From Crambe crambe (Eukaryota > Porifera > Demospongiae > Poecilosclerida > Crambeidae): a stretch of 64,000 nucleotides of DNA. The stretch lies in contig OZ004589.1 in NCBI GenBank assembly GCA_963924555.1, positions 4,526,001 through 4,590,000 of the forward strand. Direction: 5' to 3'. Positions 2,590 to 59,692 of this stretch are shown piece after piece (the stretch's first letter is position 1; every line of letters begins with the position of its first letter). A program made the translations under genes and the position numbers. A model generated the notes under the pieces. That model had not been told where the DNA came from and searched no databases. It was given only the letters and a program-made list of their open reading frames with translations.

Positions 2590-4245
2590 ATGAACTGTAA
2601 ACTCTTTTTTGTGTTGTTACTTATTCCTTGCAGTGAGGCCTCAGGAGATATCCAATATCAGGAAGAATCAGAGGTTAAAGAGATGACTTGTCCCACGTGG
2701 TACCACATTAACTCTGCCGGCCAGTGCGAATGTGGTGTACGCTTAGAAAACAGTGTGATGTGTAAGCCAAAAAAGAAAGTTGCCATAGATGCTTGGCTGT
2801 GTATGTCTTTGAGTTATGATAATCGAAGTAAAGTTACAGTTGCAGGAAATTGCATATACAGTCCTTTAGACAGTTTCAACAACGAATTTTTCATTGAACA
2901 GCCCATTGCTGTGACAGAATTGGATAATTTCACTTGTGGCTGGTTGAAGCGAACTGGCCTTTTGTGCAGCCACTGCAGGAATCAGTCACATGGAGTTGCT
3001 ATGCTATCCTACAGGTATGAGTGTGTGGAATGTCTTGGGAGTATCTATGGATGGCTGCTTTATTTCACCCTCGTACTTGTTCCAGTCACGTTATTCTTCC
3101 TCGTCATCATAGTCTGCAATGTTCGTGCAACAGCTGCCCACATGAATGCATTCATATGCATTGTACAGATCTCACTTAACGGCATTAACAGTTTAATAAG
3201 TGGAGTTCATACAAACTTCGATAAAATTGTCGTGACCCTATTTGGTATTTGGAATTTGGATTTTTTTCAGTATACTTTCCCTCCATTCTGCATCGATAAA
3301 AACTACTCGACTTTGAGAGTACTATCATTTGGCTACATCAATGCCTTCTATCCATTAGCACTCCTGATAATCACGTACATTTGTATTGAGTTATACGACA
3401 AGAACTGCCGACTGCTCAGAGCAGTTTGGCTACCTTTTGGATTATGTCTATCTTTCATTCAGAAACATTTGTCTGTAAAACTTCACATAAATGCTAAATT
3501 GAATGTTTTGAATGCATTTGCTAGTTTCATCATCTTAGCATACTGCAAGATATTGTACATAAATTTCGCCCTTCTTAGTTTTACACAGCTCTTTGAGAGC
3601 AATGGATCTCCATTTCCACCAAATGGAACACGATATACTCTCTACAATGCTTCAGTGCCGTACCTTGAAGAAGAGCATAAACCTTACTTCATCCTGGCCT
3701 TTATTGTGCTCCTGGTCTTCAACATCTTTCCAATGCTTCTTCTACTCTTGTACCCCACGAAACCCTTTCAAAAGTTACTCAACTACTTCCCCCGAATGCG
3801 TTGGGATTACCTTCACATATTCATGGACTGTTTTCAAGGTTGTTACAAAAACGGAACTAACAACACTCTGGACTATCGCTACTTCGCTGGACTTTACCTC
3901 CTCATTCGATTCATAAACCACATCAGTAGAGTCCACAGTGATTGGTCGTACACCATCACCATTCAGATAATTCTTTGCCTGACTGTCTCAATTCTGTTTG
4001 GAGTTTTACGACCATACAGAAACGATTTCTATAACAGAGTAGACTGTATGTTCTTTGGATTGCTAACATTGGGCATTGTATGCATATTGTGCAACCAATA
4101 CATTATCCATCTTCGAAACCTTACAGTCATCTTAGGAGTGATTGCAGTGTCATACGCACTCTTGATACTGCTACAGAACTGGACATCAATAGTGTGTCCA
4201 CAAAGTCTCATAGTTAAACTCAAAAAATTCTTCAGCTACATGTAG
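2590..4245 (+). CDS. Family A multi-pass membrane protein with Cys-rich ectodomain, intact copy 1
   Basis: Single open frame of 551 residues, ATG to TAG, with no intron visible. Residues 1-19 look like a signal peptide (MNCKLFFVLLLIPCSEASG). An ectodomain to about residue 150 has Cys at 34, 46, 48, 58, 71, 88, 116, 126, 129, 145 and 148, including CSHC (126-129) and CVEC (145-148), plus N-glycosylation sequons. Eight or nine hydrophobic segments follow, near 151-178, 182-203, 248-268, 305-330, 365-388, 432-445, 456-474, 486-502 and 511-530. A conserved block DCFQGCYKNGTNN (413-425) precedes the sixth. At least a dozen related pieces lie in this window. The start is supported by the same ATG and the same upstream element in other copies. 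I do not recognise a named family. A receptor-like surface protein is inferred from layout only. Confidence 0.85.
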   Translation: MNCKLFFVLLLIPCSEASGDIQYQEESEVKEMTCPTWYHINSAGQCECGVRLENSVMCKPKKKVAIDAWLCMSLSYDNRSKVTVAGNCIYSPLDSFNNEFFIEQPIAVTELDNFTCGWLKRTGLLCSHCRNQSHGVAMLSYRYECVECLGSIYGWLLYFTLVLVPVTLFFLVIIVCNVRATAAHMNAFICIVQISLNGINSLISGVHTNFDKIVVTLFGIWNLDFFQYTFPPFCIDKNYSTLRVLSFGYINAFYPLALLIITYICIELYDKNCRLLRAVWLPFGLCLSFIQKHLSVKLHINAKLNVLNAFASFIILAYCKILYINFALLSFTQLFESNGSPFPPNGTRYTLYNASVPYLEEEHKPYFILAFIVLLVFNIFPMLLLLLYPTKPFQKLLNYFPRMRWDYLHIFMDCFQGCYKNGTNNTLDYRYFAGLYLLIRFINHISRVHSDWSYTITIQIILCLTVSILFGVLRPYRNDFYNRVDCMFFGLLTLGIVCILCNQYIIHLRNLTVILGVIAVSYALLILLQNWTSIVCPQSLIVKLKKFFSYM

Positions 4246-5091
4246 CTATTAGGTAACACTTAGTGATAATTTAGCTAGCACAGTCAGAGTGTGTCATGCA
4301 GTGTGTATTCTTATGGTTTGCCAAGATGCAATCACATATCCTTCTCCTCTTATTATCCCCCCTCCCCTTGATATTGCCCTCCTTGATCTCTAAAGAGATT
4401 ATAAAACAGGTGCTCTTTCAAGTACATCTAGCTATGGCAAATTCAACAGAGCGTTTATTCTGCAACCGAAAGTTGATACTTTGCTTCTGTGTACGTAGCT
4501 AGCTAATTTAAGGGTATCGCATTGAACAAACTTGCATGGATATCACAATAATTTCAGCTATTGTCCGATAGTTTAATATATTTTTAGAAGTGGCATGCAT
4601 GTAAGAAAAGCAGGTGCATATCCTTTGACTAAGGATACAGTCAGTTTTACCTAAGGGGTAAGGAGTAGAAGGGGATGATGACGAGGTGAGGGGAAGGGTG
4701 AGGGCTGGGGTGTGTGAGGGCTGGGGTTGAGGGAAAGGTGGAGGGTTGGAGGAGAAGTTTATATATGGGGGAGAAGGGTAGAAAGATAAGATGAGAGGAT
4801 GAGAGGTAGAAGGGGAAAGAAAAGGAGATGAAAAGATGATCTCTTGAAAAAAAAAACAACTTCATTTCACACAGTAAAACACTTAGCTATGTTATTATGA
4901 GATGCAAAACACCAGTTAATTTGGTATAAAATAATAGAAAATGATGCACCATATTACATAACATAGTTATTTTGACAGAACTGTTTTTACTGTGTAATAA
5001 GGACACTATTTAAAGTCAGAGTTATGAAAAGGAATGCTATCTAGCTATCATAAATAAGTTACATAGGTAGCTATCATAAAAGTGTTCTTAC
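4246..5091. other. Spacer between two convergent family A copies
   Basis: The first 350 bases resemble the 3' flanks after other family A copies (near 39880-40100 and 57540-57720), so the duplicated unit includes its downstream flank. Positions 4650-4855 are a G/A-rich stretch with simple repeats, recalled in weaker form at 40255-40345 and 57885-57945. No convincing gene is seen; the short open frames lie in simple sequence. Confidence 0.5.
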
Positions 5092-6739
5092 CTAAAGAAC
5101 TGTTTTGAGTTTATCTATGAGACTTTGTGGACACACTATTGATATCAAGTTCTGTAGCAGCATCAACAGTGTGTAGGACACTACAATCATTACCAAGAAG
5201 TATTGTAGGACTAAATAATTTCGTAGATGAATGATGTATTCATTGCACAGTACGGATACAGCGTCCAATGTGAGCAATCCAAAGAGTGCACAGTCTAATC
5301 TGTTATAGAAATCATTTCTGTATGGTCGCAAAACTCCAAACAGAATCGAGACTGTCAGGCAAAGAATAGCTCGAATAATCGTGGAATATGACCAATCACT
5401 GTGGATTATACTGATATGATTTATGAGTCGAATGAGGAGGTAAAGTCCAGGGAAGTAGCGATAGTCCAGAGTGTTATTAGTTCCATTTTTGTAACACCCT
5501 TGAAAAAAATCCATGAATATGTGAAGGTAATCCCAACGTATTCGGGGGAAGAAGTTGAGTAACTTTTGAAAGGATTTCGTGGGGTACAAAAGTAGTAGAA
5601 GCATTGGAAAGATGTTGAAGATCAGGAGCACAATAATGGCCAGGATGAAGTAAGGTTTATGCTCTTCTCCGAGGTACGGCACTGAAGCATTGTAGAGAGT
5701 ATATCGTGTTCCTCTTGATGGAAATGGAGATCCATTGCTCTCAAAGAGTTGCGTAGGACTAAGAAGGACAAAATTTGTGTACAATATCTTGCAGTAGGCT
5801 AAGATGATGAAAGTAGCGAATGCATTCAAGACATTCAATTTAGCATTTATGTGAAGTTTCACAGACAAATACTTCTGAATGAAAGACAGACATGATCCAA
5901 AAGGTAGCCAAACTGCTCTGAACAGTCTGTAGTTCTTGTCGTATAACTGAATGCAAATGTATGTGATTATCAGGAGAACTAGTGGATAGAATGCATTGAT
6001 GTAGCCAAATGATAATACTCTCAAAGTTGAGTAGTTTTTATCAATGCAGAATGGAGGGAAAGTATACTGAAAAAAATCCAAATTCCAAATACCAAATAGG
6101 GTCGCAATAAATTTTTCAAAGTTTGTATGAACTCCACTTATTAGCCTGTTGATGGTGTAGAGTGTGATCTGTACAATGCATATGAATGCATTCAAGTGGG
6201 CTGCTGTTGCACAAATATTGCAGACTATGATGACGAGGAAGAATAACGTGACTGGAACAAGTACAAGGGCGAAATAAAGCAGCCATCCATAGATACTCCC
6301 CAGACACTCTGCACACTCATAACTGTAGGATAGCACAGCAACTCCATGTGACTGATTCCTGCAATGACTGCACAAAAGGCCAGTTCGATTCAACCAGCCA
6401 CAAGTGAAATTATCCAACTCTGTCACAGCAATGGGCTGCTCGATAAAATAATCATTGTTGGCACTGCCTAAAGGACTGTATATGCAATTTCCTGCAACTG
6501 TGACTTTACTTTTATTATCGTAACTCATACACGTCCAGGCAATAGTAGCAACTTTCTTATTTGGCTTACATATCACTTTTTATCTCCCAAGCGTACACCA
6601 TATTCACACTGGCCAGCAGAGTTAGTGTGGTACCATGTGGACGTGGAACAGGTCATCTCTTTAACCTCTGATTCTTGATATCTCCTGAGTCCACACTACA
6701 AAGAATAAGTAGCAACACACAAAAGAGTTGAAAATCCAT
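5092..6739 (-). pseudogene. Family A copy, open over most of its length but broken near the N-terminus
   Basis: From 6576 down to 5092 the frame is open for 494 residues and matches the intact copies from the CKPNKK region through all membrane segments to the C-terminus. The normal ATG is at 6739 with a recognisable signal peptide. Compared with intact copies there is a short deletion after GDI (the QYQE part) and a small length change just before the MICKPNKK stretch, so the first 60 codons are out of frame. Either a recent pseudogene or a gene rescued by an unseen splice. It faces the 2590-4245 copy tail to tail. Confidence 0.75.
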
Positions 6740-7799: not shown

Positions 7800-8189
7800 G
7801 GAAAAATAAAGAAATAAAAATAATTAACTCTAGGAGATGACTGATCACAACCATGGCATTATAGACTTTCTCCACATTACTCTCTCCTATAACAAAAGAC
7901 TGCCACATGATGCTCACATGAAAGTCATGTGACCTACCTTCAGCTACATCAACAGTCAAGGTGGCTCCATAGGTAGGAGCAGTTGATATTTGCTCAATGA
8001 ATATAGGGTAATAACCTGGTTATCACAATGAACAAACTGTTCAAGTACTCCTTGGACGATAACCATGGAAATCACAATGTTATTTGAAGTGCTTTACTCA
8101 GTGAATCTAAGTTCAAAATAATAAGAAAAAAACCATTTGTACACCTAGTGATAGTTATACGTAGCTAAAGTTGGCTAGCTAGATTTTTA

Positions 8190-8990
8190 GTGCTTCTACT
8201 AGCTTGTAGTGAGGGCTCAGGAGATATATCAGGGAGAATCAGAGGTTAAAGAGATGACCTGTCCCACACTAACTCTATTGGTAAGTGTATGCTTGAGAAA
8301 CAAAGTGATATGTAAGCCAAATAAGAAAGTTGCTGGCTGTGTATGAGTTATGATAATAAAAGTAAAGTCACAGTTGCAGGGAAATGTTTAATCAGTCCTT
8401 TAGACAGCTTCAACATATTTCATCGAGCAGCCTGCTGTGACCGAATTTGTGGTTGGTTGAATTGAACTGGCCTTTTGTGCAGTCAGTCACATGGAATTGC
8501 TCTGCTATCCAACAAGTATGAGTGTATGGAATATCTGGGGAGAATCTATGGATGGCTGCTTTATTTCACCCTTGAACTTGTTCCAGTCACATTATTCTTC
8601 TTGTCATTATAGCCTGCAACATTAGTGCAACAGCAGCTAGCCCATATGAATGCACTGAACAGATCACACTCTATGCCATTAACAGTAACATATGTACATT
8701 TGCATTGAGTTATACAACAAGAACTACTGACTGCTCAGAGCAGTTTGGTGGATTATGTCTATTCTTCATTCATGTCAGTGAAATTTCACATAATAATAAT
8801 GTTAAATTGAATGTCATCTTAGCATAATGCAAGATATTTCGCCTTTCTTAGTCCTATCTCCATTTCTACCGAGTGGAACATGATATACTCTCTACAGCGC
8901 ATATCTCAAAGAAGAGCATAAGCCTTATTTCATCCTGGCCATTATTGTGCTCCTGGTATTCAACATCTTTCCAATGGTTCTTCTCCTATC
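8190..8990 (+). pseudogene. Strongly decayed family A copy
   Basis: Pieces of family A follow in order: the end of the signal peptide (GAGGGCTCAGGAGATAT), the CKPNKK region, the AGKC region, the LYFTL membrane segment, the ELYNKNY region and the EEHKPYFILAIIVLLVFNIF segment. Many deletions and frame changes separate them. It retains too little to encode a protein. Its 3' end is fused to a GPCR fragment (next entry). Confidence 0.75.
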
Positions 8991-9055: not shown

Positions 9056-9244
9056 TTCATACAGCATAGTGTTATTAGCTATCAATTAGCATCTCAAATA
9101 TTACGATATTTAGCCTTGCGTGATTGACTCGATGTGTTGAATAACATCTCCAAAAGTTACACTCCTCTGCTAGCCTACAATCAATCAGTAACTTAGAAGG
9201 TTCTTCGATCATCATTATCAACTGTGAATAATAGCTACGTAATC

Positions 9245-10303
9245 ATGAGTGGTGCTGATCTCTTCAATATCACCAGTAATGACACCACATGTGTGGCACG
9301 CAACATTCAAGGTTCTGTCCTACTCCCGTTCAACGAAAGTGCATCAATAGTGGTGAAAATCATCCAAGCCTTTCATTCCTTCCTCGTCCTGATCTGTGGT
9401 ATTTTACTTAATTCAATGGTTCTTTTTGTCGTGGGAAAGTTCAAGAAACTCCAGACTCCATCATTTTCCATTGGTCTCCAAGTTGTGGTACTTGACTTGA
9501 TGTTAGCACTGATTCAAATATTTGTACTTACCTCCATTATAGCAGGCAGCTGGCCATTTGGCGAGGCCTTGTGTGCAATTGTTGGTTTTATCGTTCAATT
9601 AACTGGACTCACAAGGACCTTCTTGATGCTTGTGCTGGTAATTGATCGTTTTCTTTCTGTCTTTTCCCCTTTCCTTTATCCAAAGTATGATTCCAAAATC
9701 ATAGTGTGCCTTTCACTCCTATCTTGGATAGCTTCCATCTTGCTCCTCATTCCTCCTTTCCCTGGATTGTTGGACTGCTACACTTTCTTGTCAACATCTT
9801 GGATTTGTAACCTTTCTAGTTCATGTAACAGGAAATGTGTAGCATTCATCAACATCTACTTTGGTTTAATAATTGCACCTTTGACGATACTTCCCCTCAT
9901 TCTCTATATCATACTCTACTGTAAAGCAAAGAAGATAAAAAATTCATCCATTGCAGTGTCTAGCAATCCAAGTGAAGGTGAAGCTAAGAGGAGAAGGAAT
10001 CAAGTTACTATCACTTTCTTTCTGCTATTCATCACTTTGTTTGTAGTGATTGTACCATCCGTTGGAATTAGTGTCATTATACGCTCTTTTATTCAGTCAA
10101 TAGGAAGCACATCAACTCTTGTGCATTCTCTGCTGATAGTTAGCAGCTCAATGGTCACTTTTCTGGTGATTACAGATCCAATAGTGATCATGCGCAATAG
10201 TGATATCAGAGAAGCACTATCTAAAATCAAAGGCACCCTGATTCCAAAAATGTGTCCTTCTATCAACGATCACCAAGATGCTGATGGCAGTCATAGCTAC
10301 TGA
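9245..10303 (+). CDS. Rhodopsin-like (class A) GPCR, family B, intact copy
   Basis: Single exon; the first in-frame ATG is at 9245 and gives 352 residues (the frame is open a little further upstream without an ATG). Class A marks: TM1 GILLNSMV with N56, TM2 D84, ECL1 W103 and TM3 C110 in SWPFGEALC, DRF (134-136) in place of DRY, TM4 W161, a basic third loop (KAKKIK, KRRR), and TM7 ITDPIVIMRN with DPIVI (311-315) where NPxxY is usual, followed by an amphipathic helix 8 (SDIREALSKI). The N-tail has NIT and NDT sequons. TM6 lacks the usual CWxP. A plasma-membrane receptor coupled to G proteins is the family role; the ligand is unknown. Closely similar to 25541-26620 and 23267-24380. Confidence 0.9.
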   Translation: MSGADLFNITSNDTTCVARNIQGSVLLPFNESASIVVKIIQAFHSFLVLICGILLNSMVLFVVGKFKKLQTPSFSIGLQVVVLDLMLALIQIFVLTSIIAGSWPFGEALCAIVGFIVQLTGLTRTFLMLVLVIDRFLSVFSPFLYPKYDSKIIVCLSLLSWIASILLLIPPFPGLLDCYTFLSTSWICNLSSSCNRKCVAFINIYFGLIIAPLTILPLILYIILYCKAKKIKNSSIAVSSNPSEGEAKRRRNQVTITFFLLFITLFVVIVPSVGISVIIRSFIQSIGSTSTLVHSLLIVSSSMVTFLVITDPIVIMRNSDIREALSKIKGTLIPKMCPSINDHQDADGSHSY

Positions 10304-12328: not shown

Positions 12329-13381
12329 ATGAGCAGTACAGATCTATCAGTCTTCAATATCACCAGTGATAACCTCACACTGACATGTGTGACACTGAAC
12401 ATTCAAGGTCCTGTTGCACTTCCCTTCAGCCAAACTGCAGCAATAGCAGTGAAAGTCATCACTCCTTCCTCATCCTGATCTTTGGTATTCTACTTGATTC
12501 AATGGTTCTTTTTGTAGTGGGAAAGTTCAAGAAACTCCAGACTCCATCATATTCCATCAGTCTCCAAGTTGTGGTACTTGACTTAATGTTAGCATTGGTT
12601 CAAATATTTGTATTTGTCTCTGTAATAGCAGGCCGCTGGCCATTTGGTGAGGTCTTTTGTGCAATAGCAGGTCTTTTACTTTTTTTGGTACCCTCACAAG
12701 GACCTTCTTTATGTTAGTGTTGGTAATCGATCGCTTTCTTTCTGTATTTTCCCCTTTCCTTTACCCAAAGTACAATACCAAAATCATAGTGTGCCTTTCA
12801 CTCCAATCTTGGACAGCTTCCATTTTACTCAGCATTCTTCCTTTACCTGGAATAATGGATTGCTACATTTTCTCGTCAAGATTTTAGATTTGTGGCCTCT
12901 CCACTTCATGTACGTAATGTGAAATGTATGGCATTTGGCAACATCTACTTTGGTTTAGTAGTTGCACCTTTGACAATCTCCCCACTCATTCTCTATCTAT
13001 TGTAAAGCCAAGAAGATCAGAAATTCATCAATTGCAATGTCTATTAATCCAAGTGAAGGTGAAGCTAAGAGGAGAGAGAACCGAGTTACTATCACCTCAT
13101 TTCTGCTATTCATCACTTTATTTGCAGTTATTGTGCCATCTACTGGAATCAGCATCGTGGCACGCTCTTTTATTCAGTTGACAGAAAGTACATCAGCTCT
13201 AGTGTACTCTCTGCAGGCAGTTAACAGTTTAGTGGTCCCCTTTTTGGTGATTACAGATCCAATAGTGATCATGCGTAATAGGGATATCAGGGAAGCACTA
13301 TCTGAAATCAAAGGCACTCTAGTTCAAATGTGGTGTCTGTCTATCAACAATCATCAAGATATTGATTGCAGTCATTACTGA
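12329..13381 (+). pseudogene. Family B GPCR with several frameshifts
   Basis: Starts at ATG 12329 (MSSTDLSVFNIT) and ends at the TGA near 13381 after the usual tail SINNHQDIDCSHY. Against the intact gene it has a deletion of about 10 bases before TM1, a frame change after TM3 entry near 12690, a stop and frame change in ECL2 near 12885-12920, and a loss near 13000 in TM5. Loop 3 to the end (13037-13381) is open for 114 residues, including ITDPIVIMRNRDIREAL. A recent pseudogene by its high similarity. Confidence 0.8.
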
Positions 13382-14417: not shown

Positions 14418-16275
14418 ATGGTTCAATACTCCCTGTTATTCATGGTAGCCATTGGCTTGATGGCTATTAGTACACTTGCTGTGGCTGAGGTAGACAGACT
14501 AAATTACTTTGAAGGTGATTTGGATATTAGTAACGAACTAATTCAAGCCTACTATGGATATGGCAGCTCACTGGTAAACATACAATTTTTAGATAGGTTT
14601 ATTAGCTATTATAGTGACTTGTTATAACCAACTAATAATACATATTTGGGTATACCTGAGAATGGTAGCTAATTTACAGCTGTATACTTGAGGAGAATGG
14701 GATTACAATTAGCAGTTGCTATTATATCTCTAGATCTAGCTGCTATAAGAGATGGTTATCATAGTAATATTAATTTCGTAGCACCTTGCTACCAAAGCAG
14801 CAATTAGGTCTCAAAATCGTCTATGGAGTGATCAGATCGTATACTACACCTTTCACAGCAGCACAAATGCAACCACAGCCAATCTGATAAGAGGAGCTAT
14901 GCAAGAGTGGAATAGAGTAACCTGTTTGAGGTTTATTATCAGGACAAGAGCAGCCATAAGAGATTATATTGAATTTCGTACAGATGGAAGAGGTTGTTTT
15001 AGCTCTTCAATTGGTCGTAATGGTGGTAGGCAAGTGATAAATCTACAAAATCCAAGATGTATGCAACATGGAATAATTTTACATGAGATTGGGCATGCTA
15101 TAGGATTTTGGCATGAACAGTCACGGCCTGATCGCAATTTATTTGTGACTATCAACAATAATAACATCATCCCAGATAAACTAGCCAATTTCCAGGTACG
15201 AAACTTGTATGAAACAGATAACCAGGGATCGATATATGACTATGGATCAATAATGCACTATGGACATTTTTTCTTCTCTGCCAATAGTAGGCCAACAATT
15301 ACTGTCAATAATATCAATGAATATAACAGACAAGGTCGACCAACACTTGGACAACGAATACGTTTGAGTGCCATTGATGTCAGACAAGCAAACCGACTTT
15401 ATAATTGTCGAGGATCAGGTGTACGGGGAATCTTAACGGTACGTGTGAATTATGCTCTTGGTGTCCCAAGCCATGATACCATTGGTAACTCAGAAGTGTA
15501 TGTTAGGGTGTCTGCAAGGGATGACACCAACTTTAGGCTCACTAGGCAGACACGAACGATTTCTAAAAGACGCAGTCAGAGCAGAGTTAACTGGTACCAA
15601 ACTCTGAGTTTTGGTGGAAGAGCATGGCAAAATGTGGAGATTAGCATCGGGGAAGACGATGTGTTTATTGATGACGGAGTAACAAATCCACAATCGTTCT
15701 CAATCCATAATGGAAGAAGAATGTACAGACATTGCAACAATGTCAACTGCACCACATCTTTAAGCTTTTACGTGAACCTGGTGCCAGATGGGAATGATTG
15801 TAGCCCAAACCCATGTAGGAATGGGGCAACATGTATTGATCTCATATTGAACTATCGTTGCAACTGCAGGGGTGGATATGCAGGACGCCAGTGTCAATAC
15901 TTAACAGGTATCCTGAGTATTCAAGCACGTAATGCAGTAGGTCTTCCAGATCGAGACGGTTGGATCAACCTAAGTGATCCTTACATGCAAGTGGTGGCCA
16001 TCGATGTGAATGGACATCGAGAAACTCGCAAGACACATCATATAACAGGCACACTCAACCCTGTTTGGAATGAGAGGATCCGGTTTAGTGGCAGGAGAGC
16101 TTGGAGCAGAATTGAAGTCACTGTGTATGATCATGATTTATTTAATGATGACCGTCTTACTCGGACAGCTATCCACACTGGAATTATGAATCTCCGTTCA
16201 CCGTTTTCCACGAGCACCTGCAGTATCCATGGCTGTGGTGGTCGTGCTTATTATATCACTTACTTTACCCCTTAA
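14418..16275 (+). CDS. Secreted astacin metalloprotease with C2-EGF-C2 modules (two exons)
   Basis: Exon 1 is 14418-14573 and exon 2 is 14782-16275. The intron 14574-14781 (208 bases) has GTAAAC at its 5' end, TTTCGTAG at its 3' end and joins in phase 0, giving 549 residues. Residues 1-23 are a signal peptide. FEGD (31-34) matches the astacin pro-segment FxGD aspartate switch. The catalytic domain begins near AAIRSQNRLW (58-67) and has the zinc motif HEIGHAIGFWHEQSRPDR (153-170) and Met-turn SIMHYG (208-213). Then come a C2-like domain (about 266-388), an EGF domain with six Cys (about 391-428) and a second C2-like domain (about 433-549) with DPYMQV and TLNPVWNE. The family is extracellular endopeptidases activated by pro-segment removal. 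C2 folds in a secreted protease are unusual. Confidence 0.9.
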
Positions 16276-19415: not shown

Positions 19416-20147
19416 TCATTCTTCCTTTATCAAGATACAGTGAAAAGTTGGAACAGAATATGGGATTTCCCCTTCACCATGGTGGTCTTTTATGGCATTA
19501 ATATTGAAATGTTCATCACCAAACTCTCCATTAGTATGTGTTTTATAAAATTCAATAAAAACAGAGGCATCTTTAAAGGTGTCTTTGTATTCACCCTCTT
19601 TGGAATACACCATCTTGAAGTTGTGTGCTGATGCGGTTTTGAGGTAGTCTCCAACAGAACAGGTTGGTAATCGTTCAATGTACATACGACGGAATTCAGG
19701 ACTAAAAAATTCAGCTGGTCCGGTGCTAATTTTGCTATTCAAAACAACAACAAAGGCAAATTTACCTCCTTTCTTTAGACTCTGGGAAACTTGATGGAAC
19801 ACCTGGTCCTTATCTTTACACCAGTGAATAACATAGTTGGAAAAAATTATGTCGTAATCAGTTCCTGGAATATTCTCAGCTGTTCCCTGACGGTATTCCA
19901 AGTTGCCAGCAGGGTATTTCTCCTTAGCTAGCTGCAGGCGTTCCAAGTTAGGGTCAATTGCGATGACCTTTCCCTCAGGACCTACAATATCAGCTAGGAC
20001 CTTGGAAAAGTAGCCAGTGCCACAGCCCAGGTCGAGGATTTTGTCACCTCTCTCTGGGGTCATTTGTTTGATAATACCTTGCCCATCTTCTTTTTGTATG
20101 CTGGAGTTGTTTTCATAGATTTCAGCTTGATTGAAGGCACCTGACAT
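19416..20147 (-). CDS. Class I SAM-dependent methyltransferase
   Basis: Single-exon frame of 243 residues from ATG at 20147 to the stop at 19416. Motif I ILDLGCGTGYFSKVL (37-51) with GCGTG at 41-45 binds SAM; the acidic residue ending beta 2 is D65 in VIAIDP. RQGTAENIPG is motif II-like, and DIIFSNYVIHWCKDKDQ with SLKKGGKF follow as motifs for catalysis and beta 5. This is the Methyltransf_11/25-like small-molecule type, comparable with trans-aconitate or juvenile-hormone-acid methyltransferases. The substrate cannot be read from the sequence. It has no signal peptide, so it is probably cytosolic. It is not linked by layout to the receptor families. Absence of introns fits the neighbourhood. 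Confidence 0.88.
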   Translation of the reverse strand: MSGAFNQAEIYENNSSIQKEDGQGIIKQMTPERGDKILDLGCGTGYFSKVLADIVGPEGKVIAIDPNLERLQLAKEKYPAGNLEYRQGTAENIPGTDYDIIFSNYVIHWCKDKDQVFHQVSQSLKKGGKFAFVVVLNSKISTGPAEFFSPEFRRMYIERLPTCSVGDYLKTASAHNFKMVYSKEGEYKDTFKDASVFIEFYKTHTNGEFGDEHFNINAIKDHHGEGEIPYSVPTFHCILIKEE

Positions 20148-40425: not shown

Positions 40426-40426
40426 G

Positions 40427-41340: not shown

Positions 41341-41344
41341 TTTG

Positions 41345-45562: not shown

Positions 45563-46847
45563 GCTTCCAACTAGCTAGTTTGCTATGGCTATATAGCCAG
45601 ACTAATGTGTGTTAATTGTTTCTTCTACACAGCAATGCTATTATAAACATTGTATGCTATTAGCTAGCAATAACAATTAAAGTAACTGTAACATGAGTAA
45701 GAACTCAGAATAAGCAAGCACACTCAAAGTATATTTTAAAGAACAACTTTAGTTAGTAAGAAATAGCACAGGTTTGTAAGGAAGCAAAATCAAGGGAAGA
45801 AATATCAAGGGGTGCACCCTTATTTCTCAGTGTGTTAAATATCGTCAGATCATAGCATGTTTACTTATAATAATTATGAGCCAGTCAGTTGAGTCAACAT
45901 GTGATTGATTGACTTCTCTCTTCCAGTTAACACTATCTGATACCTACAGACTGCTTATGTAGCTGGAACACATGAATCTTTTTAGCATGTGGAGAGGGAT
46001 GGGGTGGGTAGCAAATTACGGCAGCTTCCAAATTATCCGTGCTCCTTAAAAATCTTATTAGCTAGCTATGTCATTTTTTTTCAAATATGCTTTGATATCA
46101 TGTGTTTTATAATGGTTAGACCATATACACCAAAATTTCAGCCTTACTAAGGTCACAAGCTTAAAATAGCCATGACCAAAAAAAATAAAAAATGCATATC
46201 TGAGACTGATACATGAAAAGAAAAAAAGCTATAGCACACTAATGCAATGTGACTAAACATCTACATGTAAAGAATTGTTCTTAGTTTAACTATGAGACAC
46301 TGTGGAAAGACTATTGATATCAAGTTCTGTAGCAGTATCAATAGTGTGTAATTACTAATTCTATTGAAGTATAATATGACTGAAACTTTTAGTAGATGAA
46401 TGATGCATTCTTTGCACAGTATACATACATTGTCATAAATTTGCAATCCAAAGAATACACAGTCTAATCTATTATAGAAGTCGTTTCTGTATGGTCGCAA
46501 AACTCCAATCAGAATGAAGATAGTCAGGTGAAGAACAGTTTTTATGGTGATGGCATCACTGTGGATTATACTGATGTGGTGTATGAATTGGATGAGGAGG
46601 TAAAGCTCAGCAATGTAGCGATAGTCCCGAATGTTGTTAGTTCTGCTTTTGTAACAGCCTTGAAAGAAATCCATGAATATGTGAAGGTAATCCCAACGCA
46701 TTCGAGGGAAGCAGTTGAGTAACTTTTGAAAGGATTTCATGGGGTACAAAAGCAGAAGAAGCATTGGAAAGATGTTTAAGACCAGGAGCACAATAAAGGC
46801 CAGGATGAAGTAAGGTTTATGCTCTTCTTCAAGGTACGGCACTGAAG

Positions 46848-47823
46848 TACAGTGTTCAAGAAGTGGCTCGCGTGGCAACTAACTTATCATTACATAATCG
46901 TGAATTACATAATTGTGACATGATGCATGATTGTGATGTAATCATGACGTAATGTATGATTGTGATACATATGAGTATAATAATACTATAACAGTAAGTA
47001 TGAACACTACATCCCTCCCTTACTTTAGATTGGAGGTAGAGTCACTTATCGTAAATGTTCTGTCCATAGCGGTGAATCGGGTTTCGAGACCTGGCTGGGT
47101 ATCACCTGGTTGGGTATCGCCTGGTTGGCTGAGGTGCAGGCGGTGCAACAGGTACAACAGGAACAGGTACTATGGCAGCTGGGTCAGGTGTATCAGCTTC
47201 ATCATTCAGTTGATCGTCATCAGAGTCATCTGAATCGCATTCCGGAGTTTTCATAGTCGGTTCGATTTTCTTGAAATGGCTTATGTTGCGCGTGATGTAC
47301 TTTTCATTTCTCACACCAGTCAACACGGTTCCTTTGATTTCAACAACTTTGTATGGAGACGGATCAAATTTGGTTGTAAACTTGTTCTTTTTCTTCTGAC
47401 GCACGAGAACAGTGTCACCAATATTTATATTGGATTCACGAGCTTGAACTCTTTGATCAGCATATTCTTTCATCTTCTGCTTCGCCTGAGAATCTTTGGC
47501 TTGTAGCTATCTCAGAATTATTTTTCTCACAAATTTCAGGAAGTTTCATTGAAATCTTCCGATTGAAAAGTAACTCAGCAGGGGAAACTGCTGTTGAACT
47601 GTGAGGAGTTGCACGGTAATTCAACAGAAATCGGTAAAGTTCTTTCTTCCAATCTCTCCCTTCAGCATGTGCAGATCGAACTGCTTTGGTGAGTGGCTTC
47701 ATAAAGCTTTCAGCTTCTCCATTTGCTTGTGGCCATAATGGGGTGACCTTCTGGTGCTTGATACCATTTTCTTCCATGTGAGCTCTGAATTCTTCCCCAA
47801 AAAACGGAGGACCAAACACTGTA
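46848..47823 (-). mobile_element. Ty3/gypsy-like LTR retrotransposon fossil (integrase end)
   Basis: Between two TGAAG direct repeats (46843-46847 and 47824-47828) lies a block with 9-base inverted ends (TACAGTGTT and AACACTGTA). On the minus strand it encodes part of a Ty3/gypsy integrase core, with PQANGEAESF and YRATPHSSTAVSPAELLF, and the C-terminal part with GDTVLVRQKKKNK and PYKVVEIKGT. The stretch 46848-47100 may be LTR-derived. The element is broken: only the 3' end of pol remains, with at least one break in the reading frame. It is younger than the gene copy it interrupts. Confidence 0.75.
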
Positions 47824-48265
47824 TGAAGCATTCTAGAGAGTACATTGTGTTCCACTCAAATATCCATTGCTCTTATAGAGCTGTGTAAGACTAAGAAGGG
47901 CGAAATTTGTGTATAATATCTTGCAGTAGGCTAAGATGATGAAAGTAGCAAATGCATTCAAGACATTTAATTTAGCATTGATGTGAAATTTTACAGACAA
48001 ATACTTCAGAATGAAGGATAGACATAATCCAAAGGGTAGCCAAACTGCTCTGAATGGTTGGTAGTTCTTGTCGTATAACTCAATGCAAATGTATGTGATT
48101 ATCAGGAGAGCTAGTGGATAGAAGGCATTGATGTAGCCAAAATAATACTCTCAAAGTCGAGTAGTTTTTATCAATGCAGAATGGAGGGAAAGTATACTGA
48201 AAAAAATCCAAATTCCAAATACTCAATAGGGTCGAAACAATTTTATCTGAACTCCACTTATCAGA

Positions 48266-49019
48266 GAGTGCGGTAGCACTCTCTATGTAGGGATGACTCG
48301 GACAGCCGCGTGCGCCGCTTATAGGCTAATACTAAAGTGAAATTCTAGTTCCCCCACTTAGACCTAACCAAAGCTACTGTGAATGATTATCCAGCCTACT
48401 AGAGCCTACTACAATGTGCAGACCAAGTTTCAGGACCAGGGAGCTTACCGTTTCAGAAATACGGCAAGCAGGTAAATCGCTGGATTCTTCTTCTTCTCTA
48501 TTGTTATCGTTATTCTTCTTAGACAACCATATCTCTCGAACCACTCAAGCTACAGCTATGATTTCTGGATAAATCCACTCCAAATTCTACCAGCTACGAT
48601 CTTTTGCACTCGTTGATCCTCGAAAGAGTCGATGAAAAAGGAGACAGTAAGGAGCACAGCACTCGACTAATTCAATTCAATTAGGAAGCCATCTTTTCTA
48701 TAATACGCATGCGCATGTATTTGATATCCGAAAATTATAATAATTACTCAGCTGTCTCTAGCTAGCTAGCTAACTAGCTTAGTATAGATTATCTATGCTA
48801 TGATAGACTACTGTATCGACTCGGGGATTTAGATTCACCACGGTAGACTATTTCAGCATCTTTGACCTCCAAGTAAGACATGACACAACACCTTGACTCG
48901 TTGATTGGGTTGGTATGCTATCGGAGAACTACTCTTCTTTCATCTGTCCCTGCATAGACATAGAAGAATGAACTTTATACATAGCTAAAACCATAAAAGA
49001 GAGGAAAAAAAGACCAGGA
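48266..49019. mobile_element. Body of a composite foldback element, copy 1
   Basis: Begins with AGAGAGTGCGGTAGCACTCTCT (a short palindrome) and TGTAGGGATGACTC, and continues with CAGCCTACTAGAGCCTACTA, TTTCTGGATAAATCCACTCC and AATACGCATGCGCATG. The same order is seen at 59693-60270. It ends in the perfect hairpin at 49020-49307. Inserted in a family A gene. No transposase frame. Confidence 0.65.
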
Positions 49020-49307
49020 ACAAGTAAGTGAAAAAGCATTTCGTGAAATGAAAAAAGATGTAGGGATGACCACTGCTCAAAAAAGTAAGGAAACAAGAAG
49101 GATGGAATCTTTGTTCTGTATATCCAGCCAACAATCCCTACATATACGTGTAGCTTCAGATTATAGTGCAGTAATGTACGTATATGTAGGGATTGTTGGC
49201 TGGATATACAGAACAAAGATTCCATCCTTCTTGTTTCCTTACTTTTTTGAGCAGTGGTCATCCCTACATCTTTTTTCATTTCACGAAATGCTTTTTCACT
49301 TACTTGT
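49020..49307. repeat. Perfect foldback hairpin, arms about 130 bases
   Basis: ACAAGTAAGTGAAAAAGCAT at 49020 is mirrored by ATGCTTTTTCACTTACTTGT ending at 49307. By eye every base pairs through CATATACGT around a loop of about 25-28 bases. Both strands therefore open the same short frame (MKKDVGMTTAQKSKETRRM), which is not a gene. The termini contain TGTAGGGATGACC, shared with the foldbacks at 10455-10835 and 60280-60560. Confidence 0.92.
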
Positions 49308-49949
49308 AAGACTATTGATGCTGTAGAGTGTGATCTGTACAATGCATATGAATGCATTCATGTGGGGTGCTGTTGCACGAATGTTGCAGGCTATAATGAC
49401 GAAGAAGAATAGAACAAATACTAGTGTGAAATAGAGCAGCCATCCATAGATACTTCCCAGACATTCCACACACTCATACCTGTAGGATAGCACAGCAACT
49501 CCATGTGACTGATTTCTGCAGTGACTACACAAAAGACCAATTCGCTTCAACCAGCCACAAGTGAAATTATCCAACTCTGTCACAGCAATGGGCTGCTCAA
49601 TGAAATAACCGTTGTTGACGCTGCCTAAAGGACTGTATATGCAATTTCCAGCAACTGTGACTTTACTTTTATTATCGTAACTCATACACAGCCAGGCATT
49701 TAAAGCAACTTTTTTATTTGGCTTACATATCACTTTATTTCTCAAGTGTACACCACATTCACACCGGCCAGCAGAATTAGTGTGGTACCACGTGGGACAG
49801 GTCATCTCTGATTCTTCCTGATATCGGATATCTCCTGAGGCCTCATTACAAGGAATAAGTAGCAGCACAAAAAAGAGTCTACAATCCATGCTTGCAACTA
49901 AGTGGCTATTGCCAGACTAATATGTGCCATTTCCTCCACACACTGAAAC

Positions 49950-51574: not shown

Positions 51575-51890
51575 ATGAAACCCTCACATTATGGATTGCT
51601 CTCATGAAAATGGAACCAGCAACAATACCCTGGACTATCACTGGGCTTTATCTCCTCATTAGACTCATAACCTGCATGAGTGCAATCCAAAGTGATTGGT
51701 CATATTCCATCTTCATTCGAAGTATTCTTCATCTGACTGTCTCTGTTTGGAGCTTTACGACCATACAGAAATGATTTCTATAACAGATTAGATTGTATGT
51801 TCTTTGGATTGCTCAGTCTTGCAATGATGCTACTTCAGAACTTGATATCAATAGTGTGTCTATAGTCAAACTTAAAAAAATGTTTAGGTA
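51575..51890 (+). pseudogene. Family A C-terminal fragment
   Basis: Runs from the CYKNGTNNTLDYRYFAGL region (with deletions) through LLIRLI, the IFGVLRPYRNDFYNRLDCMF region and MLLQNLISIVC to the tail KLKKMF. Several deletions make it non-coding. Confidence 0.75.
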
Positions 51891-52993: not shown

Positions 52994-54644
52994 ATGGATT
53001 GTAGACTCTTTTTTGTGTTGCTACTTATTCCTTGTAGTGAAACCTCAGGAGATATCCAATATCAGGAAGAATCAGAGGTTAAAGAGATGACCTGTCCCAC
53101 ATGGTACCACACTAACTCTGCTGGACAGTGCAAATGTGGTGTACACTTGAGAAACAAAGTGATATGTAAGCCAAATAAGAAAGTTGCTACTATTGCCTGG
53201 TTGTGTATGAGTTATGATAATAAAAGTAAAGTCACAGTTGCAGGAAAATGTATATACAGTCATTTAGACAGCTTCAATGACAATTACTTCATCGAGCAGC
53301 CCATTGCTGTGACAGAGTTAGATAATTTCACTTGCGGCTGGTTGAAGCGAACTGGCCTTTTATGCAGTCATTGCAGGAATCAGTCACATGGAGTTTCTGC
53401 ACTATCCTACAGGTATGAGTGTGTGGAATGTCTGGGGAGTGTCTATGGATGGCTTCTTTATTTCACCCTCATATTTGTTCCAGTCACATTATTCTTCCTT
53501 GTCATTATAACCTGCAACATTCGTGCAACAGCACCTCACATGAATGCATTCATATGCATTGTGCAGATTGCACTCAATGCCATCAATGGTCTATTAAGTG
53601 CAGTTCATACAAACTTTGATAAAATTGTTATGACCCTATTGGGTATTTGGAATTTGGATTTTTTTCAGTATACTTTCCCTCCATTCTGCATTAATAAAAA
53701 CTACTCGACTTTGAGAGTATTATCATTTGGCTACATCAATGCTTTCTATCCACTAGTTCTCCTGACAATCACGTACATTTGCATTGAGTTATACGACAAG
53801 AACTACCGACTTTTCAGAGCAGTTTGGCTACCTTTTGGATTTTGTCTATCTTTCATTCAGAAGCATTTGTCAGCAAAACTTCACATAAATGCAAAATTGA
53901 ATGTCTTGAATGCATTTGCTACTTTCATCATCTTAGCCTACTGCAAGATACTATACACGAATTTCACCCTTCTTAGTCCTACACAGCTCTTTGAGAGCAA
54001 TGGATCTCCATTTGCACCAAGTGGAACACAATATACTCTCTACAATGCTTCAGTGCCATACCTTGGAGAAGACCATAAACCTTATTTCATCCTGGCCATT
54101 ATAGTGCTCCTGGTATTCAACATCTTTCCGATGCTTCTTCTGCTCTTGTACCCAGCAAAACCTTTTCAAAAGTTACTCAACTGCTTTCCCCAAATGCGTT
54201 GGGATTATCTTCACATATTTATGGATTTCTTTCAAGGCTGTTACAAAAATGGAACTAATAACACTCTGGACTATCGCTACTTCGCTGGATTTTTACCTCC
54301 TTATTCGATTCATAAGCCTCATCAGTATAATCCACAGTGATGGGTCATATTCCATCATCATTCAAGGTATTCTTTACCTGACTGTCTCGATTCTGTTTGG
54401 AGTCTTACGACCATACAAAAAGGATTTCTATAACAGATTAGACTGTACATTCTTTGGATTGCTGACATTGGGTAATGTGTGCATACTGTGCAATGAATAC
54501 ATCATCCATGTTCGAAATTTTTCAGTCATATTACACTTCTTGGTAATGATCACAGTGTCCTACACACTGTTGATACTGCTACAGAACTTGATATCAATAG
54601 TGTGTCCACAAAGTTTCATGAACTCAAAACAATTCTTTAAGTAA
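52994..54644 (+). pseudogene. Family A copy with a single frameshift late in the gene
   Basis: Open from ATG 52994 for about 433 family-like codons, with full signal peptide, Cys domain (CPTWYHTNSAGQCKCG, CKPNKK, CGWL, CSHC, CVEC) and most membrane segments. An extra T in the run at about 54291-54295 (GGATTTTTACC against GGACTTTACC) shifts the frame so that the first frame ends at 54340. The remainder (LLIRFISLISIIHS to NSKQFFK) is open to 54644. It carries the long loop form FESNGSPFAPSGTQYTLY. Could be a young pseudogene or a homopolymer sequencing error. Confidence 0.85.
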
Positions 54645-55789: not shown

Positions 55790-57445
55790 ATGGATGGTAG
55801 ACTCTTTTTCATGCTGTTGCTACTTATTCCTTGTATTGAGGCATTAGGAGATACCCGATATCAGGAAGAATCAGAGGTTAAAGAGATGACCTGTCCTACG
55901 TGGTACCACACTAACTCTGCAGGCCAGTGTGGGTGTGGTGTGCATTTGAGAAACAAAGTGATATGTAAGCCAAATAAGAAAGTTGCTACTATTGCCTGGC
56001 TGTGTATGAGTTATAATAATAAAAGTAAAGTCACAGTTGCAGGAAAATGCATATATAGTCATTTAGGCAGCTTCAACAACAATTATTTTATCGAGCAACC
56101 CATTGCTGTAACAGAATTGGATAATTTCACATGTGGCTGGTTGAAGCGAACTGGCCTTTTATGTAGTCACTGCAGAAATCAGTCACATGGAGTTGCTGTG
56201 CTATCCTACAGGAACGAGTGTGTGGAATGTCTGGGGAGTGTCTATGGATGGCTGCTTTATTTCACACTCATACTTGTACCAGTCACATTATTCTTCCTCA
56301 TCATTATAGCCTGCGACATTCGTGCAACAGCAGCCCATATGAATGGATTCATATTTATTGTGCAGATCACACTCTACAGCATCAATGATCAAATAAGTGG
56401 AATTCATACAAATTTTGATAAAATTGTTGTGACCCTACTGGGTATTTGGAATTTGGATTTTTTTCAGTATATTTTCCCTCCGTTCTGCATTGATGAAAAC
56501 TACTCAGCTTTGAGAGTGTTATCATTCGGCTACATCAATGCCTTCTATCCACTAGCTCTCCTGATAATCACATACATTTGCATTGAGTTGTATGACCAAA
56601 ACTACCGACTGTTCAGAGCAGTTTGGCTACCTTTTGGATTATGTCTATCTTCCATTCAGAAGCATTTGTACTTAAGACTTCACATCAATGCTAAATCGAA
56701 TGTCTTGAATGCATTTGCTACTTTCATCATCTTAGCCTACTGCAAGATATTGCACATAAATTTTGGCCTTCTTACTCCTATACAGCTTTATGAGAGCAAT
56801 GGATATTCAAGTGGAGCAAAATATACTCTCTACAATGCTTCAATGCCATACTTTGAAGAAGACCATAAGCCTTACTTCATCCTAGCCATTATTGTGCTCC
56901 TGGTATTCAACATCTTTCCAATGCTTCTTCTGCTCTTGTACCCCACAAAACCCTTTCAAAAGTTACTCAACTGCTTTCCCCAAATGCGTTGGGATTACCT
57001 TCACATATTCATGGATTGCTTTCAAGGCTGTTACAAAAATGGAATTAACAACACTTGGGATTATCGCTACTTCGCTGGACTTTACCTCCTCATTCGATTC
57101 ATAAACCATATCAGTAGAGTCCAGAGTGATCATTCATACACCATCATCATTCAAATAATTCTTCATCTGACTGTCTCGATTCTGTTTGGAGTTTTACAAC
57201 CATACAGAAAGGATTACTATAACAGATTAGACTGTGCATTCTTTGGATTGCTAACATTGGGTAATGTATGCTTTCTTAGCAACGAATACATCATCCATCT
57301 TCAAAATTTTACAGTCATATTATACTTCATGGGAATGATCTTAGTAGCCTACACGCTGTTGATACTGCTACAGAACTTGATATCGATAGTGTGTCCACAG
57401 AGTCTCATAGTCAAACTCAAAATTAAATGTAGTGACATTTTATAG
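55790..57445 (+). CDS. Family A multi-pass membrane protein, intact copy 3
   Basis: Open for 551 residues, ATG 55790 to TAG 57445. Signal peptide MDGRLFFMLLLLIPCIEALG; Cys domain with CPTWYHTNSAGQCGCG, CKPNKK, AWLCMSY, CIYSH, CGWL, CSHC, CVEC; membrane segments as in copy 1. The N-terminal half is closest to the 52994 copy (KVATIAWLCMSY, GKCIYSHL), yet the loop has the short form YESNGYSSGAKYTLY of the 41875 group, so it looks mosaic. The 5' element is at 55725-55789. The 3' half and 3' flank are copied inverted at 58868-59692. Confidence 0.87.
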   Translation: MDGRLFFMLLLLIPCIEALGDTRYQEESEVKEMTCPTWYHTNSAGQCGCGVHLRNKVICKPNKKVATIAWLCMSYNNKSKVTVAGKCIYSHLGSFNNNYFIEQPIAVTELDNFTCGWLKRTGLLCSHCRNQSHGVAVLSYRNECVECLGSVYGWLLYFTLILVPVTLFFLIIIACDIRATAAHMNGFIFIVQITLYSINDQISGIHTNFDKIVVTLLGIWNLDFFQYIFPPFCIDENYSALRVLSFGYINAFYPLALLIITYICIELYDQNYRLFRAVWLPFGLCLSSIQKHLYLRLHINAKSNVLNAFATFIILAYCKILHINFGLLTPIQLYESNGYSSGAKYTLYNASMPYFEEDHKPYFILAIIVLLVFNIFPMLLLLLYPTKPFQKLLNCFPQMRWDYLHIFMDCFQGCYKNGINNTWDYRYFAGLYLLIRFINHISRVQSDHSYTIIIQIILHLTVSILFGVLQPYRKDYYNRLDCAFFGLLTLGNVCFLSNEYIIHLQNFTVILYFMGMILVAYTLLILLQNLISIVCPQSLIVKLKIKCSDIL

Positions 57446-57538: not shown

Positions 57539-57945
57539 TCATGACAGCCTATATCATGCTTGGCATTGAAGGCTTTTATCCATTAAGGGGAATTATGGAC
57601 CTCCTCCTTGATCTCTAATAAAAATCTAACCGGTTCTGTTTTAAGTACACCTATGGCAGATATGACAAGTATTTTGTTACTGATGAACATAACCTGGTCA
57701 TCATGATGAATAAACTCCTTGGATAATAGTGAAGCATGCATGGGAATCACTTAATTATTGTGCCTGATAGTTTATTCAACTGAATTTATCATAGAAGTAA
57801 ACATGTAAGAAAAACAGGCACATAAAAAAAACATCTTTTGACTAAAGGGTGCATGGATACAGTCTTCATCTAGTTTTACCTAAGGGTGGAAGGGATAAGG
57901 GGTGGATAGTGGAAGGGGTAAGGGGTAAAGAGGTTAAGATAGGGA
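57539..57945. other. Family A 3' flank between inverted arms
   Basis: CTTGGCATTGAAGGCTTTTAT and GGGTGCATGGATACAGTC parallel other family A 3' flanks. No gene; ends in a G-rich stretch. Confidence 0.45.
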
Positions 57946-58148
57946 ATAATGGCCAGGATGAAGTAAGGTTTATGTTCTTCTCCAAGGTATATGGCACTGA
58001 ATTAAGCATAGTTGAGTATATCGTGTTCCACTCATTGGAAATGGAGATCCATTACTCCCAAAGAGCTGCGTAGCACTATAAGAAGGGCAAAATTTGTGTA
58101 CTCATAATTATAACTCAATACAAATGTACGTGATTTTCAGGAGAGCAA
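57946..58148 (-). pseudogene. Family A fragment
   Basis: Minus strand: YICIELY-like, then LLSP...LFGSNGSPFP and EHKPYFILAII regions, with the intervening membrane segment lost. About 200 bases remain. Confidence 0.7.
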
Positions 58149-58149: not shown

Positions 58150-58867
58150 CATTCACATTATATATTATAAAATAACATTATATATTATGATTGTATCTTA
58201 TGTCAAAATAACAAACTCTTGCTGTTAATATTATAACAAATAATACTGGAAATGCATTTCATAATTATAACAAGTGTTTTACTGTGTTGATGGACACTGT
58301 TCCACTGTTGCTAAATATAGCTGCATGGCGAGGTATTAATGAGTTATTAATAGTTAATAGTTAGGCCAGACCAAATTGATTTTTTGTTGCTCGGGCCCGG
58401 CAGGTCAAATTTTTGAGCACCCCACAAAAAATTCTCATGTGATCAATTGAAAAATGGCTAGCTGCTCTAGGTCTCTTGGTCTTCGGCTTGCTATCAAGGT
58501 GCTAAAGTTCTCAAAGTTCACAACATTCATGTTCCCCCATGGCTTTCTCACTGGTTGCTACTTCTTGTATCACAGATTGTGTCTGCATAATGATAATAGC
58601 TAAATAAATTGTTGCACTAAAACTATAAACATACATTTTTCTTAGTAACTAAAACAATTTCTTTGCATCCATTTTCTTCTATCTCTTCTTCAAATAAACT
58701 TCCTTCACTCTCTGTCTCAATATCACTATTTGACTCCATGAGCCGGCCGTCTCCAGCGCTAGCGGCTATTCCGCCATAGAAACCCGTAATTTACTATTGT
58801 ATCCGTGCGCGTAGTCCGTGACCGCGCGTCACATCCATACGGAGTATCTATATTATCTATGGTTCTA
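58150..58867. other. Spacer with a repeat remnant
   Basis: GTTAGGCCAGACCAAATTG...CTCGGGCCCGGCAGGTCAAAT (58357-58410) looks like a transposon-derived repeat. A CpG-rich patch (GCGCGTAGTCCGTGACCGCGCG) lies near 58806-58828. No gene is supported. Confidence 0.4.
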
Positions 58868-59692
58868 CGTACGTATCTTCCCCTGATATTCAGGTCTATG
58901 TCATTGTATATCTTGGCAAACCATAATGAGATCATGCAGGACACATTGTGAGCTATAAAATGTCATTAGATTTAATTTTGAGTTTGACTATGAGACTCTG
59001 TGGACACACTATCGATATCAAGTTCTGTAGCAGTATCAACAGTGTGTAGGCTACTAAGATCATTCCCATGAAGTGTGAAATTTTGAAGATGGATGATGTA
59101 TTTGTTGCTATGTTAGCAATCCAAAGAATGCACAGTCTAATCTGTTATAGTAATCCTTTCTGTATGGTTGTAAAACTCCAAACAGAATCGAGACAGTCAG
59201 ATGAAGAATTATTTGAATGATGATGGTGTATGAATGATCACTCTGGACTCTACTGATATGGTTTATGAATCGAATGAGGAGGTAAAGTCCAGCGAAGTAG
59301 CGATAATCCCAAGTGTTGTTAGTTCCATTTTTGTAACAGCCTTGAAAGCAATCCATGAATATGTGAAGGTAATCCCAACGCATTTGGGGAAAGCAGTTGA
59401 GTAACTTTTGAAAGGGTTTTGTGGGGTACAAGAGCAGAAGAAGCATTGGAAAGATGTTGAATACCAGGAGCACAATAATGGCTAGGATGAAGTAAGGCTT
59501 ATGGTCTTCTTCAAAGTATGGCATTGAAGCATTGTAGAGAGTATATTTTGCTCCACTTGAATATCCATTGCTCTCATAAAGCTGTATAGGAGTAAGAAGG
59601 CCAAAATTTATGTGCAATATCTTGCAGTAGGCTAAGATGATGAAAGTAGCAAATGCATTCAAGACATTCAATTTAGCATTGATGTGAAGTCT
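58868..59692 (-). pseudogene. Inverted near-identical 3' half of family A copy 3
   Basis: Reverse copy of 56684-57538 including about 100 bases of 3' flank (CCTGATATTCAGGTCTATGT against ACATAGACCTGAATATCAGG). The 187-residue open stretch differs from copy 3 at a single residue (T for I in KNGTNNTWDY), apart from a small deletion near 59110 that breaks the frame. It is truncated at 59692 by the composite foldback element. It has no ATG, signal peptide or ectodomain. Confidence 0.9.

Follow-up and report, generated by a model that had tools for sequence, protein, structure and literature searches.

Why does the sponge Crambe crambe carry, within one stretch of 64,000 nucleotides (contig OZ004589.1, positions 4,526,001 to 4,590,000; here called the window), so many copies of a gene for an unnamed, intronless, multi-pass membrane protein, and what might such proteins do? 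At a probability of about 0.5, we suggest that they are receptors at the cell surface that bind external ligands, members of a family that expanded in this lineage and is perhaps distantly TRP-like. An initial annotation had claimed at least 15 copies or pieces of this family in 57 kb on both strands, with three fully open copies of about 550 residues. Searching the window by tblastn with the three open proteins (E ≤ 1e-4, same-strand pieces within 250 bp merged), we found 17 separate family places between positions 2590 and 59693, 6 on the plus strand and 11 on the minus strand, so the earlier count was an understatement. Three of the 17 are open from ATG to stop, encoding 551 aa (2590 to 4245, plus strand), 547 aa (41875 to 43518, minus strand), and 551 aa (55790 to 57445, plus strand), each present in the open reading frame (ORF) list and among the tblastn matches; the other 14 are frameshifted, interrupted by stops, or partial. 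The open coding frames are single-exon, as had been stated, with an intron in the 5' untranslated region being possible.

This tandem cluster represents only a minor fraction of the family in the genome as a whole. Used as a protein query against the genome, the copy at 2590 gave 83 matches (966 first-look candidates, 79 scored), and searches with other members gave 82, 77, 69, and 80. Merging 304 match rows left at least 256 distinct family places, at least 179 of which are full-length and uninterrupted (merged match, ≥430 codons; stop-to-stop frame, ≥540 aa; no internal stop). These counts are lower bounds, as each search scores only about 70 to 80 candidates; the merged count holds 9 places in the window, where the dedicated tblastn search finds 17. 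The places lie on many contigs, 202 of the 256 in clusters of three or more, with subfamilies in local arrays. Short-form frames span 555 to 634 aa (5th to 95th percentile). A codon pattern for the motif WNLDFFR had 158 exact hits in the genome versus 0 for its reversed control (291 versus 46 with one mismatch allowed). A hidden Markov model (HMM) trained on 21 family proteins matched all 75 ORFs of at least 480 aa from the window and the other loci (71 distinct proteins; weakest E = 8.4e-102), a result that shows coherence rather than independent discovery, because the ORFs had been fetched by similarity and the model was trained on the family.

The family is therefore a large tandem repertoire with open copies and pseudogenes, as in chemosensory or recognition receptor sets. 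Animal odorant, serpentine, and gustatory receptor genes are likewise numerous, arranged in tandem, often single-exon, and accompanied by many pseudogenes. The sponge family resembles those repertoires in being large, tandemly arrayed, single-frame, and rich in broken copies but differs from them in its predicted helix number and its cysteine-rich ectodomain, and no sequence match to them was found. With 3 open and 14 broken copies in the window, the birth-and-death pattern described in the initial annotation is borne out; the receptor role that it attached to this pattern is something that we, too, can only infer.

To describe the protein, we used an alignment of 45 family rows, with residues numbered after the copy at 2590. 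Averaged hydropathy has a hydrophobic N terminus at about residues 1 to 19, in keeping with the signal peptide claimed earlier, and then an ectodomain of about 130 aa that reaches to about residue 152. Hydrophobic segments follow near residues 157 to 177, 248 to 268, 304 to 329, 365 to 390, 433 to 448, 454 to 472, 486 to 503, and 512 to 534, and the signal at 183 to 229 is weak and ambiguous. Basic residues cluster in 271 to 303, around 391 to 430, in 476 to 482, and in the C-terminal tail. Placing these basic stretches inside and the glycosylatable loop 331 to 364 outside implies an extra crossing in 183 to 229, for a total of nine. We thus predict about nine crossings, with the N terminus outside and the C terminus inside, which agrees with the 8 to 9 membrane segments originally proposed. 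An AlphaFold2 model, built from an 11-row alignment of window pieces and the outside relative discussed below, had a mean pLDDT of 36 and was set aside.

All three open window copies have 11 cysteines between residue 20 and the first transmembrane segment (TM1), as the initial annotation had said, and over the 45 rows the number in this region ranges from 5 (in a row truncated at its N terminus) to 16. Cysteines 88, 116, 126, 129, 145, 148, and 234 are present in every row. Cys34 and Cys46 come and go together: 40 rows have the two, 4 have R and Y in their place, and 1 truncated row lacks them; because they are replaced together in the same 4 rows, they probably pair, which suggests a Cys34-Cys46 disulphide, although those 4 rows form one clade and so represent a single event only. 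As the ectodomain count is odd and Cys234 is invariant, a natural guess is that Cys234, in a predicted outer loop, would form a bridge to the ectodomain.

Selection was estimated from the ratio of nonsynonymous to synonymous differences per site (pN/pS) in the window's subfamily, using 18 open copies (3 from the window and 15 from other loci; 153 pairs, compared pairwise and pooled). The pooled ratio was 0.40 for the whole protein, with none of 152 usable pairs above 1, and again 0.40 for the ectodomain, with 1 of 151 usable pairs above 1. The open copies are under purifying selection, and turnover concerns copy number, not protein sequence; the description of the family as fast-evolving stands for the former and fails for the latter. 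Diversifying selection on the ectodomain, for which a dN/dS comparison had been proposed, was not found by pairwise pN/pS in this subfamily, where patches reach 0.55 to 0.91.

Among regions, pN/pS was lowest in the predicted cytosolic loops 271 to 303 (0.19) and 391 to 430 (0.21) and highest in the leader (0.63), the last helices at 431 to 535 (0.53), and the outer loop 331 to 364 (0.47). In 25-codon windows, the highest values were at 201 to 225 (0.91), 51 to 75 (0.71), 326 to 350 (0.69), and 501 to 525 (0.64), and the lowest were at 301 to 325 and 401 to 425 (both 0.14), 251 to 275 (0.16), and, within the ectodomain, 26 to 50 (0.19). In the 45-row alignment, 13 of 40 columns in the cytosolic stretch 391 to 430 are at least 80% conserved versus 0 of 21 in the outer stretch 330 to 350, and the loop 200 to 211 is also variable. 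The predicted outside tends to vary and the predicted inside to stay constant, a tendency only, because both the regional ratios and the 45-row conservation contain exceptions.

The module also occurs in longer proteins. Eight of the 179 full-length places lie in open frames of 1,319 to 1,440 aa: the module at locus L081 sits inside an open frame of 1,375 aa, and seven further matches lie in frames within that range. A query made of the first 170 residues at L081 (124 upstream of the module and 46 within its start) matched 113 genome places at E ≤ 1, itself included. At E ≤ 1e-3 there were 82, and 61 of these are in open frames 1,150 aa long or longer. All eight long frames are among the 113 matches, one only at E = 0.076. 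These matches point to a second, numerous group of proteins, each encoded in a single frame, that apparently keep this plan and have a larger outer region; the membrane module was checked in only a minority of the 61 long frames. Relatives of the L081 outer region were observed on contigs C6, C10, C15, C16, C5, and others, many of them 1,150 to 1,440 aa long.

Is this a known family under another name? No member examined, either singly or in profiles, rose above threshold in Pfam, NCBIfam (searched with the three open window proteins only), or PDB sequences, where matches were sub-threshold only. The absence of a known domain name noted earlier thus holds, and these searches found no housekeeping transporter, the kind of hit that the initial annotation had named as speaking against its proposal; matches at noise level in PDB included an HKT transporter chain (E = 9.6) and an NADH-dehydrogenase subunit (E = 0.24). 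The membrane-proximal cysteine motif (GxLCGxC...C..C) resembles DUF7630 (PF24633), which matched 10 of the 45 members at E ≤ 1 (best, 0.0033); no member examined reached the cut-off of 27 bits, and so short a cysteine motif can match by convergence. Across the genome, DUF7630 occurs at 17 places at E ≤ 0.01, none of them in a frame that matches the L081 outer region. Six places are above the cut-off: five are frames of 1,227 to 1,306 aa (C6:1132638, C12:6130771, C19:5524512, C19:5519598, and C9:1349423), and the sixth, of 586 aa (C16:3659810), is a candidate for membership only. Literature searches for the family or its kind found no description, and we claim nothing wider. Uncharacterized proteins of cnidarians and sponges may carry motifs resembling those around D-x-F-Q-x-C-x-K...R-x-F-A-x-L-Y-x-L-x-R, which is among our reasons for not calling the family categorically new.

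The remaining lead is to the TRP-like family PF06011, whose fungal members have nine membrane helices. In the whole genome, three matches to PF06011 were obtained at E ≤ 1, none above the curated cut-off. The best and the weakest (E = 0.6) belong to open frames 1,272 and 1,231 aa in length, each of which was also picked up with the L081 outer region (E = 0.0012 and 1.9e-4, respectively); we identify them as ORFs of that long-form set because frame length, strand, and spacing agree. Both matches start at profile position 327, near the R-P-Y-K...Y-N-x-x-D of the module, a placement estimated from distance rather than from an alignment. Because the two roughly coincide in where they hit the module, we rate kinship as possible; the membrane module and TRP-like proteins may be distantly related. 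The plan of an ectodomain followed by a multi-helix domain is like that of fungal flavin carrier (Flc) proteins of this family, which combine an ML-like with a TRP domain; according to the available text of the same source (PMC9600462), the ML-like domain is not universal among fungal TRP-like members. Unlike them, the sponge family has hundreds of copies, matches the profile only below the cut-off, and has no detected ML-like domain (PF14558 and PF02221 are absent from the Pfam matches of 45 members at E ≤ 1 and of six proteins at E ≤ 10).

Under the reading that we favor, the products would be surface receptors for chemicals or microbes. Variable parts of the ectodomain and the outer loop would meet ligands, and the constrained loops 271 to 303 and 391 to 430 would read out to a common machinery. 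We propose this because, in the window's subfamily, paralogues differ in parts of the ectodomain and in the outer loop while its predicted cytosolic loops are the most constrained, and a receptor role also fits the large tandem repertoire, the hydrophobic leader, and the cysteine-rich ectodomain. If the TRP-like kinship is real, ligand-gated cation entry would be one possible output. A bolder form, in which short (550 to 640 aa) and long (1,150 to 1,440 aa) forms make up one repertoire of an undescribed receptor-channel class, with nine helices, a disulphide-bonded head, TRP-like kin, and hundreds of single-exon genes serving as the main chemical- or microbe-sensing repertoire of nerveless animals, is one that we consider unlikely.

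A number of observations weigh against the receptor proposal or its TRP-like extension. The leader and the topology derive from hydropathy only, with charge used for sidedness, and the membrane side of the most variable window, 201 to 225, is ambiguous by that measure. The ectodomain is no more relaxed than the protein as a whole, its window at 26 to 50 is strongly constrained (0.19), and the last helices at 431 to 535 vary more than it does (0.53). In the 45-row alignment, the most conserved parts are the helices TM3 to TM5 (entropy, 1.43 to 1.47), the loop 270 to 303 is merely middling (2.06), and TM8, TM9, and the tail vary as much as the outer loops. The best PF06011 match (E = 0.0036) scores 22.2 bits against a cut-off of 28.5, and the others are at chance level; the third (E = 0.19) comes from a 204-aa frame that contains stops and appears in no family-search list. 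L081 itself does not match PF06011, nor does any of the 45 alignment rows at E ≤ 1, and the profile may merely favor hydrophobic stretches.

The same features could be read differently. Transporters or channels for lipids, flavins, ions, or small solutes, expanded for diet or detoxification in an Flc/TRP-like manner, might share the ectodomain-plus-helices plan of Flc proteins as presented in PMC9600462, and two long forms do have weak PF06011 matches. Charged residues in or near predicted helices are almost invariant (D224 in all rows, K320 and R440 in at least 90%), as would suit such a function. However, the PF06011 scores stay under the cut-off, neither an ML-like domain nor a transporter family is above threshold in Pfam, NCBIfam, or PDB, and hundreds of diverged paralogues exceed what such families usually keep, so we regard this account as doubtful. 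A new class of G-protein-coupled receptor (GPCR)-like chemoreceptors would fit genes that are single-frame, in tandem, and in the hundreds, with an ectodomain and helices, as are the chemoreceptor genes of other animals. Yet about nine helices are predicted, not seven, and no 7tm family matched any of the 45 members at E ≤ 1; a comparison of the family profile with the rhodopsin-type GPCRs of the window gave a probability of 0.6%, a weak test because the GPCR side had 3 rows only. The GPCR families of choanoflagellates and sponges are likewise membrane receptors of early-branching animals and their relatives, but the available text of PMC12716839 and PMC4302439 describes none that combines such an ectodomain with such a set of helices. 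We therefore consider a GPCR-like class quite improbable.

Another possibility is a role in immunity or self/non-self recognition (microbe sensing or allorecognition) instead of environmental chemosensing. The cysteine-rich ectodomain, the many copies, and their birth and death would be consistent with it, and a dileucine-type motif in the last 30 residues, present in 16 of 45 members versus a shuffled mean of 4.1 (maximum of 10 in 500 shuffles), would suit endocytic sorting. On the other hand, the motif occurs in members from outside the window and in neither of the two window rows of the alignment, no positive selection was found in the ectodomain of the subfamily analyzed, and no immune domain was above threshold in any member scanned, which leaves this role rather unlikely. 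The number of the copies, their fragments, and their presence on both strands might suggest self-propagating genes of mobile elements or viruses. We consider this very improbable: no relatives were confirmed in viral contigs (searched with two alignments and one protein behind a peptide-pattern prefilter), in phages (queried with L051, the outside relative), or in plasmids (queried with the copy at 2590), and the DNA common to the copies upstream is short, with subfamilies in local arrays.

Among bacterial genome contigs, where 14 pattern stretches were found and 1 was confirmed, there is one relative, L051 (contig WLWP01000010.1; 28% identity in the best segment). Its assembly name, MH-Pat-SR, is that of a short-read assembly of the sponge Mycale hentscheli (PMC7157528), and it is tied to this species by that name only, as the accession prefix does not appear in the main text of that paper. 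The 7,853 bases examined hold just one ORF of at least 150 aa, and so the contig is probably sponge DNA binned by mistake into a bacterial genome. In a quick, midpoint-rooted tree of 58 rows, L051 lies inside the family beside C8, C16, C1, and C19 members (support, 91), on a long branch whose placement the program flagged as unsure; if the position is right, the main family groups split before the two species did.

How the copies arose can be read in part from the window itself. Inverted-repeat pairs of family DNA, far above chance, measure 314 to 1,608 nt with 84 to 90% complementarity, and the pair 59110 to 59693 and 56674 to 57257 is 100% complementary, indicating that duplication by inversion is recent. 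Immediately 5' of the ATG of the first copy (2477 to 2589, plus strand) is an element with a TTTATAA-like box that is common to other copies. By eye, it also precedes those at 52994, 55790, 43518 (minus), 45551 (minus), 39115 (minus), and 37018 (minus), as well as that at 49889 (minus), there without a clear box; no clear instance was seen by eye 5' of the copy at 6677 (minus). When 600 upstream bases of five copies were compared, the best local alignment of 9 of the 10 pairs stopped at the ATG or close to it, the common stretch extending 45 to 192 bases upstream; in the tenth pair (55790 with 49889), it lay at about -473 to -433 of the 55790 copy. Such common upstream DNA argues for DNA duplication over retrocopying, which we rejected as the source of the copies. 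New copies would arise by local DNA duplication and inversion, carrying the short upstream element along, and many would then decay.

Decay takes many forms among the 14 other places. Those found by tblastn are a degenerate, diverged copy with stops within its first piece (8184 to 8988, plus strand; 43 to 50% identity), an N-terminal fragment (36821 to 37043, minus), a degenerate, almost full-length copy (37545 to 39115, minus), a tiny fragment (39502 to 39597, plus), the second half of a copy spread over several frames (40420 to 41364, minus), a middle fragment with 3 stops (47824 to 48270, minus), a C-terminal fragment in two frames (51637 to 51859, plus), and a small fragment (57915 to 58077, minus). 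Present in the ORF list as well are a broken copy in several frames (44230 to 45551, minus), an open C-terminal fragment (46270 to 46848, minus), and an N-terminal fragment with 197 aa open (49296 to 49889, minus). A member at 5092 to 6683 (minus) has an open part of 494 aa and its N-terminal piece in a different frame, and one at 52994 to 54641 (plus) is open for 448 aa before the family match resumes in another frame. The last, a C-terminal fragment at 58956 to 59693 (minus), was found by the inverted-repeat search and tblastn.

The window also holds other genes. Rhodopsin-type GPCR genes form a cluster at 9224 to 10303 (plus), 23267 to 24320 (plus), and 25541 to 26620 (minus); the first and third match 7tm_1 at about 1e-22, the second looks broken because its frame stops at 24001 while the repeat continues, and a further diverged copy near 12373 to 13295 is visible as DNA repeats. 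An open frame with astacin protease, C2, and EGF-like domains (14899 to 16275, plus) likely has an upstream exon, as it starts inside the astacin profile, and an ORF at 19416 to 20147 (minus) has a methyltransferase domain (Methyltransf_31/11). Elsewhere in the genome, about the first 892 bases of locus L024 hold, on the minus strand, an open frame that we take to resemble a Tc1-type transposase and that flanks a family copy.

Overall, the family is very large, numbering at least 179 copies that are open and full-length, and has neither a Pfam model nor a solved relative; naming it, building a profile, and solving a structure would be worthwhile. Any animal or protist proteome could be screened with a profile made from the 45-row alignment. 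If the products are indeed receptors, the constrained cytosolic loops would point to a common downstream partner, and the family may help to explain how an animal that lacks neurons perceives its environment or distinguishes one microbe from another.

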